In this document: one piece after another, positions 36,446-44,505 of the stretch | Position numbering within the stretch: position 1 is the stretch's first letter | How the letters are laid out: every line of letters starts with the position of its first letter | DNA from: Clostridiaceae bacterium | GTDB taxonomy: Bacteria > Bacillota_I > Bacilli_A > Erysipelotrichales > Coprobacillaceae | Length of the DNA stretch: 64,000 nucleotides | Assembly (NCBI GenBank): GCA_902363625.1 | Contig: CABJAS010000002.1 | Location: 301,819 to 365,818 of the forward strand | Direction: 5' to 3' | Made by a program: the position numbers and the translations under genes | Notes under the pieces: model-generated | What the model saw: the letters and a program-made list of their open reading frames with translations, nothing else | Told to the model about the DNA's origin: nothing | Databases searched by the model: none

Positions 36446-37918
36446 TTATCCTAATTGAATACGCTTGGTCGCTATTTTATCTGTAAATGCAGCGTCATGT
36501 TCAACAAAGATCATAGTCGGCTGATATTCTAAGATGAGATTTTCGATCTGAATACGAGATAAAACATCGATATAATTGAGTGGTTCATCCCAAATATATA
36601 AGTGTGCCTGTTGAGCGAGACTGCCGGCAATAAGCACTTTTTTCTTTTGACCGGCACTAAATTCTTCAATATTCTTTTCAAATTGAATTCTTGAAAAGTC
36701 CAATTTTCTTAGAATCGCTTTAAATAAACTTTCATCAATCCCGGCATTTAAGGCATAATCTTTTAAATTACCTTTTAAAAAAGCAGTATCTTGTGACACA
36801 TAAGAAATCTTTAATTGATTCTTAATGACGATAGTGCCTGAATGCGGAATATCCTGCCCTAATAGTAATTTAATGATACTTGATTTTCCACTGCCGTTTT
36901 TACCAATCAACGCAATTCTTTCTCCAACGCAAACATTAAAGCTGAGATTTTGGATAATCGGACGATCATAGGCAATGTTTAAATGATCGACATACAGCAT
37001 CTGACTGCTGTGAAACTTTAATGGATGGATAGCAAGGGACTCCGCTTCCTCAATATTTTTAAGCAGTTTCTCTTTTTCGTTTAACTGGTCGCTTCGTCTT
37101 TTCTCCAGTGTCTTTGAGCGTTTCATCATTTTAGCGGATTTATGTCCAATGAAGCCGCGATCAGGTCTTAACCCGGAGATACGCTGTCCTTTTTTTGTGC
37201 TTTCTACTGCGTCTGACCATTGAGATGTGCGTTTGGCAGCTTCATTCAAGCGCTTAATATCTTTCTTTAAGCGCTGATTCTCATCTAGTTCATACTGATC
37301 TTGATAGTCTTTATTTTGTTTCCAAGTGCTGTAATTTCCTTTTTGGACTTCAATATTGGCTTTGTTGATGGATAACACATGATCGATGCAGCCATCTAAA
37401 AAGGTACGATCATGACTGATTAAGATAAAGCCATTCTTTTTGTTTAAATAATCACTGACAATCTTACGTCCATTCCTATCTAAATGATTGGTTGGTTCAT
37501 CAATTAATAAAAAGTGATGCTCCTTTAAAAATAAGATAGCGAGCATTATTTTAGTCTGTTCCCCTTTTGATAATGTGTAAAACATCTGATACAGGGTTTC
37601 ATCAGGAATTTCCAGTAATGAAAATTCTTTGTAGATCTGCCATTGTTCAATACTTGGAAGCATCTCTTCAATAATATTGATGGTTAAATCATCTTTTATA
37701 GAAAAAGGAAAATAATCAAATTCGATATCTGCACTGATTGCTCCTTTATATTCATATTCTCCCATCAATAGCTTTAAAAAGGTTGTTTTTCCTCTCCCGT
37801 TTCTGCCGATAAAACCAAGTTTCCAATTTGTATCAATCTGAAAGCTTACATCTTGAAAAATATCGTCAAATGAAGAATCATAGGAAAATGTTAATTGGGA
37901 TATATTTATTAATGCCAT
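36446..37918 (-). CDS. ABC-F ribosomal protection protein, Lsa-like
   Basis: 490 residues, two ABC domains in one chain and no membrane helices. Domain 1: GFIGRNGRGKTT, LSKGEQTK, LLIDEPTNHLD. Linker about residues 190-300, rich in Lys/Arg (the P-site-reaching arm of ABC-F proteins). Domain 2: ALIGKNGSGKSS, FSAGQKKK, YIWDEPLNYIDV, switch His in FVEHDAAF. The opening LINISQLTFSYDSSFDDIF and the WDEPLNYID motif place it with Lsa/Vga-type proteins, which free ribosomes from lincosamides, streptogramin A and pleuromutilins. The exact drug range cannot be read from sequence. It is controlled by the attenuator upstream; AAGGAGG precedes the ATG. Confidence 0.92.
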   Translation of the reverse strand: MALINISQLTFSYDSSFDDIFQDVSFQIDTNWKLGFIGRNGRGKTTFLKLLMGEYEYKGAISADIEFDYFPFSIKDDLTINIIEEMLPSIEQWQIYKEFSLLEIPDETLYQMFYTLSKGEQTKIMLAILFLKEHHFLLIDEPTNHLDRNGRKIVSDYLNKKNGFILISHDRTFLDGCIDHVLSINKANIEVQKGNYSTWKQNKDYQDQYELDENQRLKKDIKRLNEAAKRTSQWSDAVESTKKGQRISGLRPDRGFIGHKSAKMMKRSKTLEKRRSDQLNEKEKLLKNIEEAESLAIHPLKFHSSQMLYVDHLNIAYDRPIIQNLSFNVCVGERIALIGKNGSGKSSIIKLLLGQDIPHSGTIVIKNQLKISYVSQDTAFLKGNLKDYALNAGIDESLFKAILRKLDFSRIQFEKNIEEFSAGQKKKVLIAGSLAQQAHLYIWDEPLNYIDVLSRIQIENLILEYQPTMIFVEHDAAFTDKIATKRIQLG

Positions 37919-37938
37919 AAGTGGTCCTCCTTATAATC

Positions 37939-38090
37939 AAAAAAGATTGCAAGAAATTACAATCTTTTTTAGCATAATAAAAAGAAGATATATAATTTCT
38001 TGCTTGGACACACTGAAAATTGCCATTATTTGGCCTCGTGCATCCTATTTTTTAGCAAGAAATTTTATACATCTTCTCATCCCCTTTGTT
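37939..38090 (-). promoter_or_regulatory. Ribosome-mediated transcription attenuator of the ABC-F gene
   Basis: On the minus-strand transcript three segments compete. Segment 1 (38055-38076, inside the leader ORF) pairs with segment 2 (37984-38003; GCAAGAAATTATATATCTTC) over about 20 bp with a 2-nt bulge. Segment 3 (37939-37970) is a terminator: AAAAAAGATTG, loop TAATTTCTTG, CAATCTTTTTT. Segment 2 is also complementary to the terminator loop and base (TAATTTCTTGC, 37949-37959). A ribosome stalled on the leader would free segment 2 to break the terminator. This matches the known logic of ABC-F and erm attenuators. Confidence 0.85.
38052..38072 (-). CDS. Attenuator leader peptide MYKISC
   Basis: A six-codon ORF ending at TAA (38052-38054). 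AAAGGGG lies 8 bases before its ATG (38070-38072) and about 10 bases after the predicted transcript start. It overlaps segment 1 of the attenuator. A longer alternative start (38080, MRRCIKFLAKK, ending at 38045) has its GGGG directly touching ATG and is less likely. Confidence 0.65.
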   Translation of the reverse strand: MYKISC

Positions 38091-38096
38091 ACTTTA

Positions 38097-38125
38097 AATA
38101 TAGGCTATTTTTAACTTTTTAGCAA
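38097..38125 (-). promoter_or_regulatory. Promoter of the ABC-F attenuator
   Basis: On the minus strand TTGCTA (38120-38125), 17-bp spacer, TATATT (38097-38102). The start near 38090 gives a leader of about 170 nt. Confidence 0.75.
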
Positions 38126-38205
38126 CCCTATTTATTCATTTTTTCTATTATAAAATAGCATAGCTGTTTAACATTTGGAGTTGCCAAACAAAAACGAATA
38201 AAGCT

Positions 38206-38329: not shown

Positions 38330-39256
38330 TTATGAAACAGCTAAAAGAAATCTTTCTAAGCCAATAGCACTTATCAAACAGCGTTCTTTTTTATTTCCAA
38401 GCATTTGATAAGTCCAGTCAACAAATCCACCGTCAACCATTTCAAAGGTTTCATTTCCTTGTTTGACCGATAATTTGAAATTGATACCTTTATAATAATT
38501 ATTATAAACATCATCATTATGAATTGATAATTCTATATTAGGAAAAATAAGTTTGATAGTTTCAACCATTCTGTCAAAAAAGCCGTCATTATCTTTGTAT
38601 CCGTTTCTTTTGCGTAGAATAATAGAGAAACGAACATTTTCTATTTCACTTAATATACCTTTATAAAAGTTTAAGTGCTTTTCTAACAACATTTTTTCAC
38701 AAGTGTAAGACCCTGTATCTATACCGGATGAAACCATACAATATAAGCCAAAATGTGAATATAAACCTTTACCTGCAAAATTTTGTGCTCTTACTGCCCT
38801 AGCAGTAGTCGCCATGTGGATAGGGATGGTATTATTTACTTCTTTTCTTTTTAATTTATCGGCAATAATTATTGCCAACATATTTGAGGGGTCTGCAAGT
38901 GTTTCTGTCCCTCGTAAAGCACTTACTACGTTATATTGATCTACGGAGCCAAAAACGCTACAGCTACCTAATGGAGCAGAGGGAGAAAGCATAATTGTCT
39001 TAATATCCATATTGGATGCTTTTCTCAATAATTTTGATTCCAAATTATGAATTTCTTCTGGATCTATACTGCTAGGGATAGTAAATCTATTTAGTTGGTA
39101 TGACTTTAGAATATCAGTTGCAGTTAAAGTATTTGTTTGTCTATCAAACACTTCTAATAGAAGTGAGTTCAAATCTGATTTTGATAGAGCTGATAACTTA
39201 TCCACTATATTCTTATCCCCAATTTTATTTGTAATTCTACTTAAAATATCACTCAT
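38330..39256 (-). CDS. HisRS/HisZ-like stand-alone class II aminoacyl-tRNA synthetase paralogue
   Basis: 308 residues from the ATG at 39256 (GGAGG 8 bases upstream). The C-terminus GGFVDWTYQMLGN ... SAIGLERFLLAV matches the layout of HisRS motif 3 (GG.YD ... G.AIGLERLL). RAVRAQNFAGKGLYSHFGLY sits where motif 2 is expected, with Arg-Ala-Gln in place of Arg-x-Glu. There is no anticodon-binding domain, and residues 1-50 are helical (LSRITNKIGDKNIVDKLSAL). Paralogues of this kind (HisZ, PoxA, AsnA-like) adenylate or bind amino acids in other pathways; the substrate here is unknown. It has its own TATAAT promoter with a GGTC-N4-GACC site. Confidence 0.65.
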   Translation of the reverse strand: MSDILSRITNKIGDKNIVDKLSALSKSDLNSLLLEVFDRQTNTLTATDILKSYQLNRFTIPSSIDPEEIHNLESKLLRKASNMDIKTIMLSPSAPLGSCSVFGSVDQYNVVSALRGTETLADPSNMLAIIIADKLKRKEVNNTIPIHMATTARAVRAQNFAGKGLYSHFGLYCMVSSGIDTGSYTCEKMLLEKHLNFYKGILSEIENVRFSIILRKRNGYKDNDGFFDRMVETIKLIFPNIELSIHNDDVYNNYYKGINFKLSVKQGNETFEMVDGGFVDWTYQMLGNKKERCLISAIGLERFLLAVS

Positions 39257-39287
39257 AGTTATCCTCCGTACTGTTACTTTCAAAATC

Positions 39288-39328
39288 ATTATAGAATGGT
39301 TACAACAACGAATCTAGGTCGATTGACC
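39288..39328 (-). promoter_or_regulatory. Promoter and Crp/Fnr-type site of the HisRS-like gene
   Basis: -10 TATAAT at 39288-39293, no consensus -35. The site GGTCAATCGACC (minus strand, 39317-39328) is centred 41.5 bases before the predicted start (39281), the classic class II activator position. Confidence 0.6.
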
Positions 39329-39378: not shown

Positions 39379-40161
39379 TTATTTGATTAAATCTTGAAAA
39401 TACTGTAATGCAACCCTTTCAGCTTCAACCTTTTTGACAATAGGACTTTGTGATAATTCCTCTCTTAACTCAAGATACAAGTTAATAGTAGCCTGCAATG
39501 CATTAACACAGCTTTTATATTCATGAGTAGCAACCGTCTTTTCTAATGCTCCAATATATTGGGGTGCTTCCAATTCGATTTTTCTAACTCCACGAGGTAA
39601 TTTACCTAAGAGAAGCTGTATTAATGGGGCAAGTACTGATTGTCTTAAAAAAGATAAAAAATCAATTGCTTCAAATAGTTCTCTACGTCCAATCTTAGTG
39701 CATGCGTAATGAACCCAAATCCAAAATCTATCTTCAATCCACTGTAAGTCTGGAGTTGGGAAGTATGCTTCTTTTTTAGAATAAATTTCTGTTATGCAGT
39801 TGTTTTCTTCATAGAGAATAGCTGAATCTTCAACCCTATCCAGTAAACCATCTAAGGTTGTAAACTTAAAATCAACATGAAGAACAGGAGAATCATAGAG
39901 GGAAATTATCAATCGAGGTTCTCCAACGTGTTCACCAGTAAAAGCAGCAACTAATGTTCCAAACTGTTCCACAATAAGTAATCTCTCTTTGATAACTTCT
40001 TCATAGGATTTATCATCTGCTACAATCACAAAATCCAAATCAGAATATTCATCTAACGATTTTGTGATATAAGAACCGCTAATTGCAAGTCCTATTATCC
40101 TACTATCTCTTTTTGAAAATTCTAATACGTTTTTTATCATTTCCTGTTGTGCTTTAGTCAT
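39379..40161 (-). CDS. Nucleotidyltransferase, aminoglycoside adenylyltransferase (Ant6)-like
   Basis: 260 residues from the ATG at 40161 (GAGAGGTG 7 bases upstream). The Pol-beta-type motif GSYITKSLDEYSDLDFVIV (about residues 30-48) has the G-S and D-x-D needed to bind ATP and metal; a third acidic residue is likely in LHVDFKF. The rest is helical with WIEDRFWIWVHYACTKIGR, as in the substrate-binding half of AadK/Ant(6) proteins. Adenylylation of an aminoglycoside is possible, but related chromosomal proteins of unknown substrate are common. It has its own promoter with the shared GGTC-N4-GACC site. Confidence 0.75.
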   Translation of the reverse strand: MTKAQQEMIKNVLEFSKRDSRIIGLAISGSYITKSLDEYSDLDFVIVADDKSYEEVIKERLLIVEQFGTLVAAFTGEHVGEPRLIISLYDSPVLHVDFKFTTLDGLLDRVEDSAILYEENNCITEIYSKKEAYFPTPDLQWIEDRFWIWVHYACTKIGRRELFEAIDFLSFLRQSVLAPLIQLLLGKLPRGVRKIELEAPQYIGALEKTVATHEYKSCVNALQATINLYLELREELSQSPIVKKVEAERVALQYFQDLIK

Positions 40162-40210
40162 AATATAACACCTCTCACTTTCCTTTATCAGCATAATTAT
40201 GCATAGGAGT

Positions 40211-41930: not shown

Positions 41931-42167
41931 ATACAAACAAACCCAACGATAAAGAGAGTAGTTATCTGAAATGTTTCAGCGAGTTAATGTAGGTGAGAGA
42001 TTAACACAGGAAAGATGGCGAAGCGCACTTTGGAGGGGAATATCTGAATGCATAGGATATTCGGTAAGCTTACCTTACAAGCGAGAGTGGATATGAGGTC
42101 AACTTATATCAACGAGAGTGGTACCGCGATATATTCGTCTCTTGATTAATTTCAAGAGGCGTTTTTT
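41931..42167 (+). ncRNA. T-box riboswitch of an amino-acid ABC transporter operon
   Basis: Stem I begins AAAGAGAGTAG with the AGTA strand; the canonical T-box AGTGGTACCGCG is at 42117-42128; the terminator CGTCTCTTGA / TCAAGAGGCG (42136-42145, 42152-42161) is followed by TTTTTT. Aligning the specifier loop with the trpS leader gives GAA-GCG (42023-42025, Ala). One base on is CGC (Arg, 42024-42026) and further on CAC (His, 42026-42028), so the amino acid is undecided. Confidence 0.92.
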
Positions 42168-42190: not shown

Positions 42191-42910
42191 ATGTTAGATT
42201 TTAGCTTAGTTTCAGCGGTTGTCATTGATTTCAGCAAGATGACAAAATGGATCCCAACATTTATTGATGGGACAATCGTAACGATCGTATTATCGTTGCT
42301 TACTGTGGTAATAGGATGTATATTAGGGTTGATTGCCACTCTAATGAAACGGTCTAATAGTAAAATCCTCAACTTTGTAGCAGCAGCTTATACACAGGTA
42401 ATCCGTGGAACGCCGATTTTACTTCAGTTATATATTTGGCTGTACGGATTTACACTGATCGGAATAGCGATTCCGGCAATGCCGTTCTTAGGTCCAACTT
42501 ATGGTTCAAGAGTATTCTTAACTGCGGTCGTGGCTTTAGGGATTAACTCAGGGGCTTATATTTGTGAATTATTAAGAGGTGGCTTGGATTCAGTCGATAA
42601 AGGGCAAATGGAAGCCGGTCGTTCATTGGGATTAACCAGTACACAAACAATGCGTTATATCATTATACCGCAAGCGGTAAAGGTGGTATTGCCCGGGCTA
42701 TGTAATGAATTTATTATGATGATTAAAGAATCTTCAATAGTTTCGGTTGTTGGAGTATTTGATGTGATGTATACAAGCAATATCGTAAAGGCTTCTACTT
42801 ATTCCGTATTTGAACCTTTAATTATTATTGCTGTCATATATTTTGTATTAACTTCGGTATTAACAGCAGCTATCGGAGTTATAGAAAGGAAGATGAATAC
42901 AGATGCTTAA
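42191..42910 (+). CDS. Polar amino-acid ABC transporter, permease subunit
   Basis: 239 residues, five or so membrane helices, with the HisM/GlnP-type [19 protein letters not shown] near the N-terminus and the coupling motif [20 protein letters not shown] (about residues 144-163). GGAGGAGAAAGAG precedes the ATG. It is the first gene behind the T-box; its end overlaps the ATPase gene by 8 bases. The single permease probably works as a homodimer importing a polar amino acid. Confidence 0.93.
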
Positions 42911-43637
42911 AACAAATGATCTATATAAAACTTACGGTAAGTTAGATGTATTAAAAGGAATCTCAACAGAGATTCATACAGGTGAAGTAGTCGCTATCAT
43001 TGGTCCATCAGGATCTGGAAAATCTACTTTCTTACGATGCTTAAACTTAATGGAAGAACCGACAAAAGGAGAGGTTATCTTCAAAGATGTGAACTTAACC
43101 ACTAAAGAAGATAAGTCTTTCAATATTAATAAAGTACGTGAACACATTGGAATGGTGTTCCAGCACTTCAATTTATTCCCGCATATGACAGTTTTGGAAA
43201 ATATCACATTGGCGCCAATCCAAGTAAAAGGATTGAATAAAGACGATGCTCAAAAGAAAGCAATAGAGCTGTTAAAGCGTGTTGGCTTAGTCGATAAAAA
43301 GGATGTTTATCCAAATAAGTTATCAGGGGGACAAAAACAGCGTGTGGCGATTGCCAGAGCATTGGCGATGGAACCGGACGTGATGCTGTTTGATGAACCA
43401 ACCAGTGCTTTAGATCCGGAAATGGTAAAGGAAGTATTATTAGTTATTAAAGATTTAGCAGAGAGTGGAATGACAATCGTCATTGTGACTCATGAAATGG
43501 GATTTGCGAAAGAAATCGCATCACGTGTGATGTTTATTGATCAAGGGATCATATTGGAAGAGGGAAAACCGGAGGATGTCTTTAATCATCCTAAACATCA
43601 GCGTACACAAGAATTTTTAGATAAAGTGATGTATTAA
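42903..43637 (+). CDS. Polar amino-acid ABC transporter, ATP-binding subunit
   Basis: 244 residues, GlnQ/HisP type. Walker [10 protein letters not shown]-loop [20 protein letters not shown] (family hallmark), signature LSGGQKQR, Walker [15 protein letters not shown], switch [10 protein letters not shown]. It is translationally coupled to the permease gene and precedes the binding protein by 19 bases. It energises import of the T-box amino acid. Confidence 0.95.
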
Positions 43638-43656
43638 TAAAAAGGAGAGAGAAACT

Positions 43657-44505
43657 ATGAAAAAGCTATTAACTGCATTATTGGCTGTCGTGATGATGGT
43701 GACATTAGTCGGATGTTCAGGTGGAGAAAAGAAAGATAAATTAGATGAAATTAAAGCGGCAGGGAAACTTGTAGTTGGGACTTCACCCGATTTCCCACCT
43801 TCAGAATTCTATATTTTAGATGAAAAAGGACAGAAACAAATTGTCGGAAGTGATATCGCTCTAGCAAAAGCAATCGCTGAAGAATTAGGGGTTGAATTAG
43901 AAATCAAAGCAACAAACTTTGATGGTGTGCTTGCCAATATCCAATCTGGACAAGTAGATATGGGTATTTCTGGATTTGCGGCAACTGAAGAAAGAAAGAA
44001 AGTGATGCAGTTCTCAGTTGGGTACCAAAGAGAAGCTGATGATGGATATCAAGGCTTAGTAGTCAGCAAAGCAACAGCTGAAAAGTATAAAACATTAGAA
44101 GAATTAAAAGCAGCTAATTTAAAAATCGGAGCACAAGCAGCTTCTATTCAATATGAAATGGCAACAAAATTAACAAAAGAAGCAAATATTCAGCAATTAG
44201 GAACAACAGATGCGATTGCTTTAGCACTGAATGCCGGAGACATCGATGCAATGGTTTCAGCTAGTTCTTCTGCTGAACCAATGTTAAAGACATTCCCTGA
44301 TTTAGTATTGCTGCCTCAAGACGAATTTGATTTAGATCCAGAAAAAATGTATTCAACAAATGTAATTGGGTTCCCATTAGGAGATGAATATAAATCATTG
44401 ATTGAAGTAGTAAATAAAGTGATTGAAGATGCAAGAGCGAATGGTGATTTAGATAAATGGGTAAATGAAGCAAAAGCTCAGGTATCTAAAGCGATTGAAG
44501 AATAA
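43657..44505 (+). CDS. Polar amino-acid ABC transporter, substrate-binding lipoprotein
   Basis: 282 residues. The signal ends in lipobox LVGC (Cys at residue 21), so it is a diacylglyceryl lipoprotein on the outer face of the membrane. The family-3 (SBP_bac_3) core is visible: GKLVVGTSPDFPPSEF, GSDIALAKAIAEELGVELEI, DMGISGFAATEERKKVM, LKIGAQAASIQYEMA. The ligand pocket residues do not reveal the amino acid by eye. Last transporter gene; a terminator separates it from the peptidase gene. Confidence 0.94.
   Translation: MKKLLTALLAVVMMVTLVGCSGGEKKDKLDEIKAAGKLVVGTSPDFPPSEFYILDEKGQKQIVGSDIALAKAIAEELGVELEIKATNFDGVLANIQSGQVDMGISGFAATEERKKVMQFSVGYQREADDGYQGLVVSKATAEKYKTLEELKAANLKIGAQAASIQYEMATKLTKEANIQQLGTTDAIALALNAGDIDAMVSASSSAEPMLKTFPDLVLLPQDEFDLDPEKMYSTNVIGFPLGDEYKSLIEVVNKVIEDARANGDLDKWVNEAKAQVSKAIEE

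Follow-up and report, generated by a model that had tools for sequence, protein, structure and literature searches.

A putative ribosome-dependent transcription attenuator upstream of an Lsa-type ABC-F gene, and related octamer-bearing leaders in Bacillota

The locus and the parts of its leader

The window, a 64,000-nucleotide stretch of bacterial DNA, carries on its minus strand a gene for an ABC-F protein preceded by a compact leader (Table 1). The protein is of the ribosomal-protection type (NF000355, 459.7 bits, above the cut-off of 380); against the NCBIfam Lsa family NF000167 it scores 716.5 bits, below the curated cut-off of 750, and we therefore call it Lsa-type only. Its best match among solved structures is Lsa(A) (7nhk, E 7.6e-128), and the nearest organism-named protein among the best 120 of 7997, from Beduini massiliensis, is 94% identical. 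Immediately 3' of the ABC-F stop lies a beta-aspartyl-peptidase gene (36444-35293, minus strand; TIGR01975, 415.5 bits), which may be co-transcribed with the ABC-F gene and so stand under the same switch. Upstream of the attenuator follow a 319-aa protein without an NCBIfam match (38330-39289, minus strand) and a nucleotidyltransferase-like protein (39379-40194, minus strand) with weak matches of 19-21 bits to the Lnu(F) and ANT(6) models. Farther away are a T-box leader (RF00230, 128.8 bits; 41937-42145, plus strand), just 5' of a stretch that reads by eye as an amino-acid ABC transporter operon (42191-44505), and a single 6948-aa open frame (7608-28454, plus strand) encoding a giant repeat-rich protein, surface-protein-like by eye.

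A preliminary description of this DNA had listed a promoter, a frame encoding MYKISC, a leader:segment-2 helix and a competing terminator, and all of these, together with a Shine-Dalgarno (SD) sequence for the frame, are present on the minus strand between 38125 and 37919. Some particulars need qualification. The promoter hexamers are there, but their match to the consensus is by itself no better than chance (3 sites versus 3.2 expected in a 601-base scan of both strands). The six-codon frame stands as described; the transcript start near 38090, from which its distance was counted, is placed by the position of the -10 box. The terminator loop had been given as TAATTTCTTG, complementary to segment 2; the pairing holds, but the predicted loop is UUUC only, and TAATTTCTTG is that loop plus the inner stem. 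A consensus terminator scanner called no terminator in the scanned 601-base region around the element, probably because the A-U-rich stem contains two G-C pairs only and the scanner requires three. A second copy of the leader octamer TTTCTTGC lies inside the terminator (37956-37949, minus strand), where the alternative partner of segment 2 consists of the 5' arm, the loop and the inner 3' arm; the leader:segment-2 helix reaches to about 37979.

Table 1. Features of the element and its gene, in window coordinates
Feature	Position	Strand	Basis or remark
Promoter-like site TTGCTA-17-TATATT	38097..38125	-	TTGCTA 38125-38120, 17-nt spacer, TATATT 38102-38097
Shine-Dalgarno AAAGGGG of upstream frame	38081..38087	-	8 nt 5' of ATG
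Upstream frame ATG TAT AAA ATT TCT TGC TAA (MYKISC, stop)	38052..38072	-	about 18 nt past the inferred start
Leader octamer TTTCTTGC (segment 1 core)	38055..38062	-	begins 10 nt after A of ATG
Hairpin separating leader from segment 2	38006..38045	-	RNA folding
Segment 2, core GCAAGAAA at 38003-37996	37979..38004	-	alternative partners: leader, or terminator
Intrinsic terminator hairpin and T run	37939..37970	-	by folding
Shine-Dalgarno AAGGAGG of ABC-F gene	37926..37932	-	sequence
ABC-F ribosomal protection-like protein, Lsa-type, 490 aa	36446..37918	-	ATG at 37918
Covariance model R1 match	37973..38096	-	62 relatives in model, window held out

Mutually exclusive computed folds and co-variation of the paired segments

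For the 192-nt leader the computed folding energy is -54 kcal/mol, compared with -33.05 (sd 3.91) for shuffled sequences (z -5.36), and none of 200 shuffles folded as low. Partition-function folding of the free transcript gives probabilities of 0.93-1.0 for the eight octamer:segment-2 pairs and of 0.96-1.0 for the terminator stem; once the leader segment is removed, segment 2 turns to the arm and loop of the terminator. A ribosome was modelled as a footprint masking the leader, in four placements that together with the free state give five states, and all five keep the hairpin between leader and segment 2 in their minimum-energy folds, its base four pairs shorter in one. Placing the ribosome on the start codon (-15 to +16), codon 3 or the Cys codon brought the terminator to 0 and the antiterminator to at least 0.99, and the shortest footprint (-15 to +13) gave 0.1 and 0.9. 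The terminator and antiterminator states are mutually exclusive by computation, and a ribosome on the leader flips the ensemble from the first to the second, the outcome of the folding check that the preliminary description had suggested.

The folding is blind to the stall position, each placement on the leader opening the terminator. Such behaviour would also suit a general sensor of translation stress, in which slow initiation or amino-acid shortage opens the terminator and no particular drug is read. We consider this unlikely, given that 51 of the 52 elements found by a model scan, albeit with a model trained on ABC-F leaders, precede two kinds of drug-resistance gene, the remaining one lying at a contig end. 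Control at the level of translation, with structure hiding the ABC-F start site and transcription not ended, appears very unlikely: unlike in erm-type translation attenuators, the SD of the resistance gene is not sequestered, lying 3' of the terminator, unpaired in the centroid fold and engaged in weak pairs only in the minimum-energy fold, and the hairpin ends in a T run, even though both levels are described as acting jointly for vmlR and cplR in the accessible text of PMC9226507 and PMC10201436.

Is the pairing itself under selection? We compared the duplex energy of each locus's own segments with that of segments exchanged between loci, uncorrected for relatedness, in 86 of 88 loci; the two left out pair at 6 of 8 positions only. 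Own segments paired better in both helices, at -22.09 versus -18.08 when swapped for leader:segment 2 (z -14.8) and -18.78 versus -15.97 for segment 2 with the downstream part (z -13.1), and none of 2000 permutations was as good as the own pairing. The window behaves likewise: its leader reaches -26.9 with its own segment 2 and a mean of -18.0 (best -23.4) with those of other loci, and its segment 2 reaches -16.3 with its own downstream part, against a mean of -10.1 (best -15.2) with others. As a check on relatedness, 31 less redundant loci gave z -9.7 and z -8.1, respectively, and z -8.4 when the octamer was excluded and the flanks alone were compared. Four controls came out at z -1.6, +2.4, +1.3 and +0.1, and one was off, the neighbouring 16 nt against the downstream part (z -4.6). 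The preliminary description had proposed a co-variation search in close relatives; co-variation is found here in both the 86 and the 31 loci, whose members other than the window are more distant. In two loci, L055 and L082, the changes run in parallel, with octamer, complement and terminator altered together. RNAalifold on alignment A2 recovered the octamer helix only and no double changes, as expected of loci chosen for carrying both exact octamers, which makes these columns invariant by selection.

The two states recur beyond the window. Across 83 of the 86 loci (three were skipped), the free state shows leader:segment 2 at 0.95 and the terminator at 0.90, and masking the leader raises the pairing of segment 2 with the terminator from a mean of 0.00 to 0.59; the rise is at least 0.5 in 52 of the 83 and smaller in 31, the latter a point against the proposed switch, all as equilibrium values. 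An ordinary terminator beside a chance repeat, with no switch, would be an extremely improbable account of the locus: terminators occur frequently and the promoter hexamers do not exceed chance, but the folding z-score, the co-variation, the match to a model that excluded the window and the gene context all stand against it.

Relatives, gene context and the form of the upstream frame

The relatives comprised 113 ABC-F loci, three from viral contigs, at least 80 from genome contigs and 30 fetched from a class-wide sample in which 72 of 398 genomes had an ABC-F match; identity in the best tblastn segment was 57-63%. Removal of five duplicates left 108 loci, examined with the window over up to 400 nt upstream. 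Counting the window, the octamer TTTCTTGC occurs in 89 of 109 loci, twice or more in 42, and GCAAGAAA in 68. A strict test, requiring an ATG or GTG with an SD-like string and, 6-13 nt further on, the exact octamer, was passed by 79 of 109 loci with the window and 78 of 108 without it. By this test, not every relative keeps the element, and the other 30 count against the switch. Nine of the 30 carry leader octamer variants, which were entered by hand into the swap test. The 20 loci lacking the exact octamer include near-matches and others with no recognisable element, and the viral contigs gave no match to the leader pattern. The strict test also loses loci with the leader at the edge of the 400 nt, such as L026, which, with L056 and L060, matches covariance model R1; the other seven of ten loci without a clear leader do not.

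R1 draws on 62 of the 78 relatives that pass the strict test, selected for an exact complement and by length limits, with the window excluded. On the 64-kb window its top match is the element (42.4 bits, E 9.6e-6), followed by the same site on the opposite strand (29.7 bits), and the next independent site scores 17.2 bits. This held-out match places the window in a family composed of SD-start-UUUCUUGC, GCAAGAAA and a terminator with UUUCUUGC. Rfam adds no name: the T-box is the sole family above its gathering threshold in the window, the best match in region 37900-38150 reaches 32.9 bits against that family's threshold of 55.8, and no family exceeded threshold in eight related loci.

What do these elements precede? 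In 341 genomes of the class of the Anaerostipes genome, R1 matched in 22 (28 rows, 22 distinct elements), and all 22 elements lie upstream of a same-strand Lsa-type ABC-F gene (53-64% identical). In 250 genomes of the class of the Brevibacillus genome it matched in 25, yielding 30 distinct elements, 24 upstream of a same-strand ABC-F gene (54-62% identity), one at a contig end and five before genes for Cfr-family 23S rRNA A2503 methyltransferases (614-649 bits, NCBIfam cut-off 550). The two samples together hold 52 distinct elements: 46 with Lsa-type ABC-F, five with Cfr-family genes and one at a contig end. The ABC-F context is partly circular, since R1 was trained on ABC-F leaders, some from genomes that recur in the 250-genome sample and one in the 341-genome sample; the Cfr context is not, as these loci lie outside the training set. 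In all five Cfr-family loci (L158, L165, L173, L174 and L175) the attenuator has the start-stop form, and in L174 and L175 the octamer differs at one or two positions. On an Enterococcus faecium plasmid, R1 matches upstream of lsa(E) with 67.6 bits, where the leader reads ATG TAT AAC TTT TCT TGC TAA and segment 2 and the terminator are present. Similar DNA occurs in 107 plasmid records, of which 102 are from Enterococcus, 106 reach 99% identity or more and one was read in context; the Cfr-type element, searched against plasmids, gave no match.

The upstream frame varies far more than its spacing. A looser pattern that also required segment 2 and the terminator copy gave 93 distinct elements, in which the conserved UUUCUUGC begins 7-12 nt past the start codon's A. 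Their frames are AUG-stop (39), Mx (7), M..SC (35), M..SCx (5) or M..FLA (7), so that the octamer either goes untranslated or is translated in one of two frames. These forms bear on nascent-chain sensing, in which the drug would stall the ribosome, in the style of erm leaders, at one specific codon for a conserved peptide (M-x-x-F/I-S-C) that itself is the sensor. A C-terminal S/Y-C, give or take one residue, ends the frame in 40 of the 93 elements, and the accessible text of PMC10201436 attributes importance to uORF identity in vmlR; but the S-C codons are nearly always TCT TGC, which is the octamer itself, 46 of the 93 frames (M or Mx) end before the octamer, seven read it as FLA, and the swap tests point to selection on the pairing, so that we judge nascent-chain sensing quite improbable. 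Peptide conservation was dropped as a signal, the apparent M..SC consensus being the octamer read in one frame. MYKISC, which the preliminary description had taken for the sensing part, is probably not the sensor, in view of the relatives' variable reading of the octamer and their frequent AUG-stop frames.

The start-to-octamer spacing is kept and the peptide is not, which is most simply read as masking of the octamer by a ribosome held on the start codon. Judged from these leaders, the switch probably requires such a held ribosome, with the pairing segment a set distance away. Among the 39 start-stop frames the octamer most often begins 8 nt after the A (34 of 39), and with a toeprint distance of 16 nt, as given in the accessible text of PMC9226507, it would end at the edge of the footprint. 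The stops in these frames are UAA (22), UAG (11) and UGA (6), with no UGG. A stop after AUG is partly demanded by pairing, since GUUAC in segment 2 pairs with GU(A/G)(A/G); the occurrence of all three stops and the absence of UGG favour, short of proof, selection for a stop codon. In a FastTree phylogeny of 90 ABC-F proteins, the four frame classes (M..SC and M..SCx counted together) need 10 changes and start-stop alone seven, three of them forced by well supported branches. The window's nearest neighbour in this tree is an Anaerostipes hominis locus (leader MIISC), although the window sits on a long branch and its placement is unsure.

Proposed mechanism and known attenuators

We propose that the element is, with high probability, a transcription attenuator that senses antibiotics of the peptidyl transferase centre (pleuromutilins, lincosamides and streptogramin A) at initiation. 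With no drug present, the short upstream frame would be translated and the ribosome would depart quickly, leaving the octamer UUUCUUGC to pair with segment 2, and the terminator would halt transcription before the ABC-F gene. A drug would hold the ribosome on the upstream start codon, where it would cover the octamer and free segment 2; this segment would then pair with the terminator arm and loop, and RNA polymerase would continue into the gene. Essential to this would be an SD, a start codon, an octamer at a fixed distance and three-way pairing, whereas the MYKISC peptide would be largely incidental. We infer the drugs, the stalling at the start codon and the read-through; according to the accessible text of PMC10201436, LsaA-type ABC-F proteins and Cfr share these drug classes in their resistance spectra. 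The ribosome-dependent transcription attenuator of the preliminary description is supported by the folds, the conservation, the co-variation and the held-out match, its peptide sensor is not. The peptide may yet count for more than we assume: for vmlR, efficient induction by lincomycin is described as depending crucially on which uORF is present (PMC10201436, accessible text), although variants MDN, MDK and MRK also worked (PMC9226507, accessible text).

We lean somewhat towards a broader reading, in which the element is a widespread drug-class sensor RNA common to ABC-F and Cfr genes, with a frame reducible to AUG-stop that would read a blocked initiation complex carrying fMet only and need no elongation. 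ABC-F proteins of this kind have been caught on the 70S complex with initiator tRNA (PMC10201436, accessible text), and, if this reading is true, such binding would close a feedback loop.

The kind of attenuator is known. The published cases, taken here as described in the accessible text of each source, include vmlR (PMC9226507), cplR and lsaA (consensus MAGN; PMC10201436), lmrC (PMC8546547), and are5sc and tiaA (PMC12421871), and the window has the parts of such a system: a short uORF with its own SD, a terminator, a computed exclusive antiterminator and a downstream ribosomal-protection ABC-F gene. One of the closest systems is vmlR of Bacillus subtilis (uORF MIN), an ABC-F gene with a short uORF within an anti-antiterminator helix, in which an initiation-stalling drug holds the ribosome on the uORF and the terminator is opened; compared by description, it differs in its three-codon uORF, RNA polymerase pause sites and SD-hiding hairpin, and the accessible text of PMC9226507 mentions no start-stop form. 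Induced by stalling, cplR of Clostridioides difficile (uORF MRI) likewise has a 5' hairpin hiding the uORF and a terminator before the gene, but its uORF consensus is MR[I/M] and its terminator, unlike that of the window's element, also sequesters the gene SD (PMC10201436). The lsaA leader shares an Lsa-type gene and a very short uORF, and is set apart by uORF consensus (MAGN versus M..ISC); MYKISC matches none of the LsaA (MAGN), VmlR (MIN) and CplR (MR[I/M]) consensus sequences in the accessible text of PMC10201436. In Streptomyces are5sc and tiaA, LSAP drugs arrest ribosomes on the first codon of the uORF, with an antiterminator able to form, although these leaders are actinobacterial, with uORFs MLV and MVGDDDISG, again compared by description (PMC12421871). 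A start-stop element that stalls ribosomes and regulates an mRNA is described for AUGUAA of Arabidopsis NIP5;1, which, unlike the window's leader, is eukaryotic, boron-dependent and acts via mRNA decay (PMC11915504, accessible text), and start-stop overlaps in E. coli have been discussed as termination-reinitiation sites (PMC9841429, accessible text).

In the accessible text of the literature searched, including PMC8632094, PMC11109978, PMC2965389 and PMC10219788, we found no description of the octamer family, no lsa(E) or Cfr attenuator of such a kind and no bacterial start-stop drug sensor. The family is widespread across Bacillota and apparently unnamed. Start-stop frames, at six nt, fall below the default minimum of nine nt in uORF4u (PMC10219788, accessible text), which may explain why they went unseen. 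Their form is unusual, and one switch type would, from the sequences, be used by two unrelated resistance mechanisms. The family offers one sequence-defined candidate switch for inducible pleuromutilin, lincosamide and streptogramin A resistance across Bacillota, potentially tying ABC-F and Cfr resistance to one regulator that also stands before lsa(E) on an enterococcal plasmid. Can a bacterial ribosome stalled at a start codon with a stop right behind it act as a sensor without any peptide? The start-stop members pose this question.

Some leaders carry a further short frame. In four clostridial loci (L026, L045, L051 and L053) a second frame, seen by eye as M followed by E/D/I, N, T/K, D and T, lies past the attenuator or its terminator and ahead of the ABC-F gene, and in L176 a short GTG frame with N-D-T precedes lsa(E); these frames are possibly a second layer of control.
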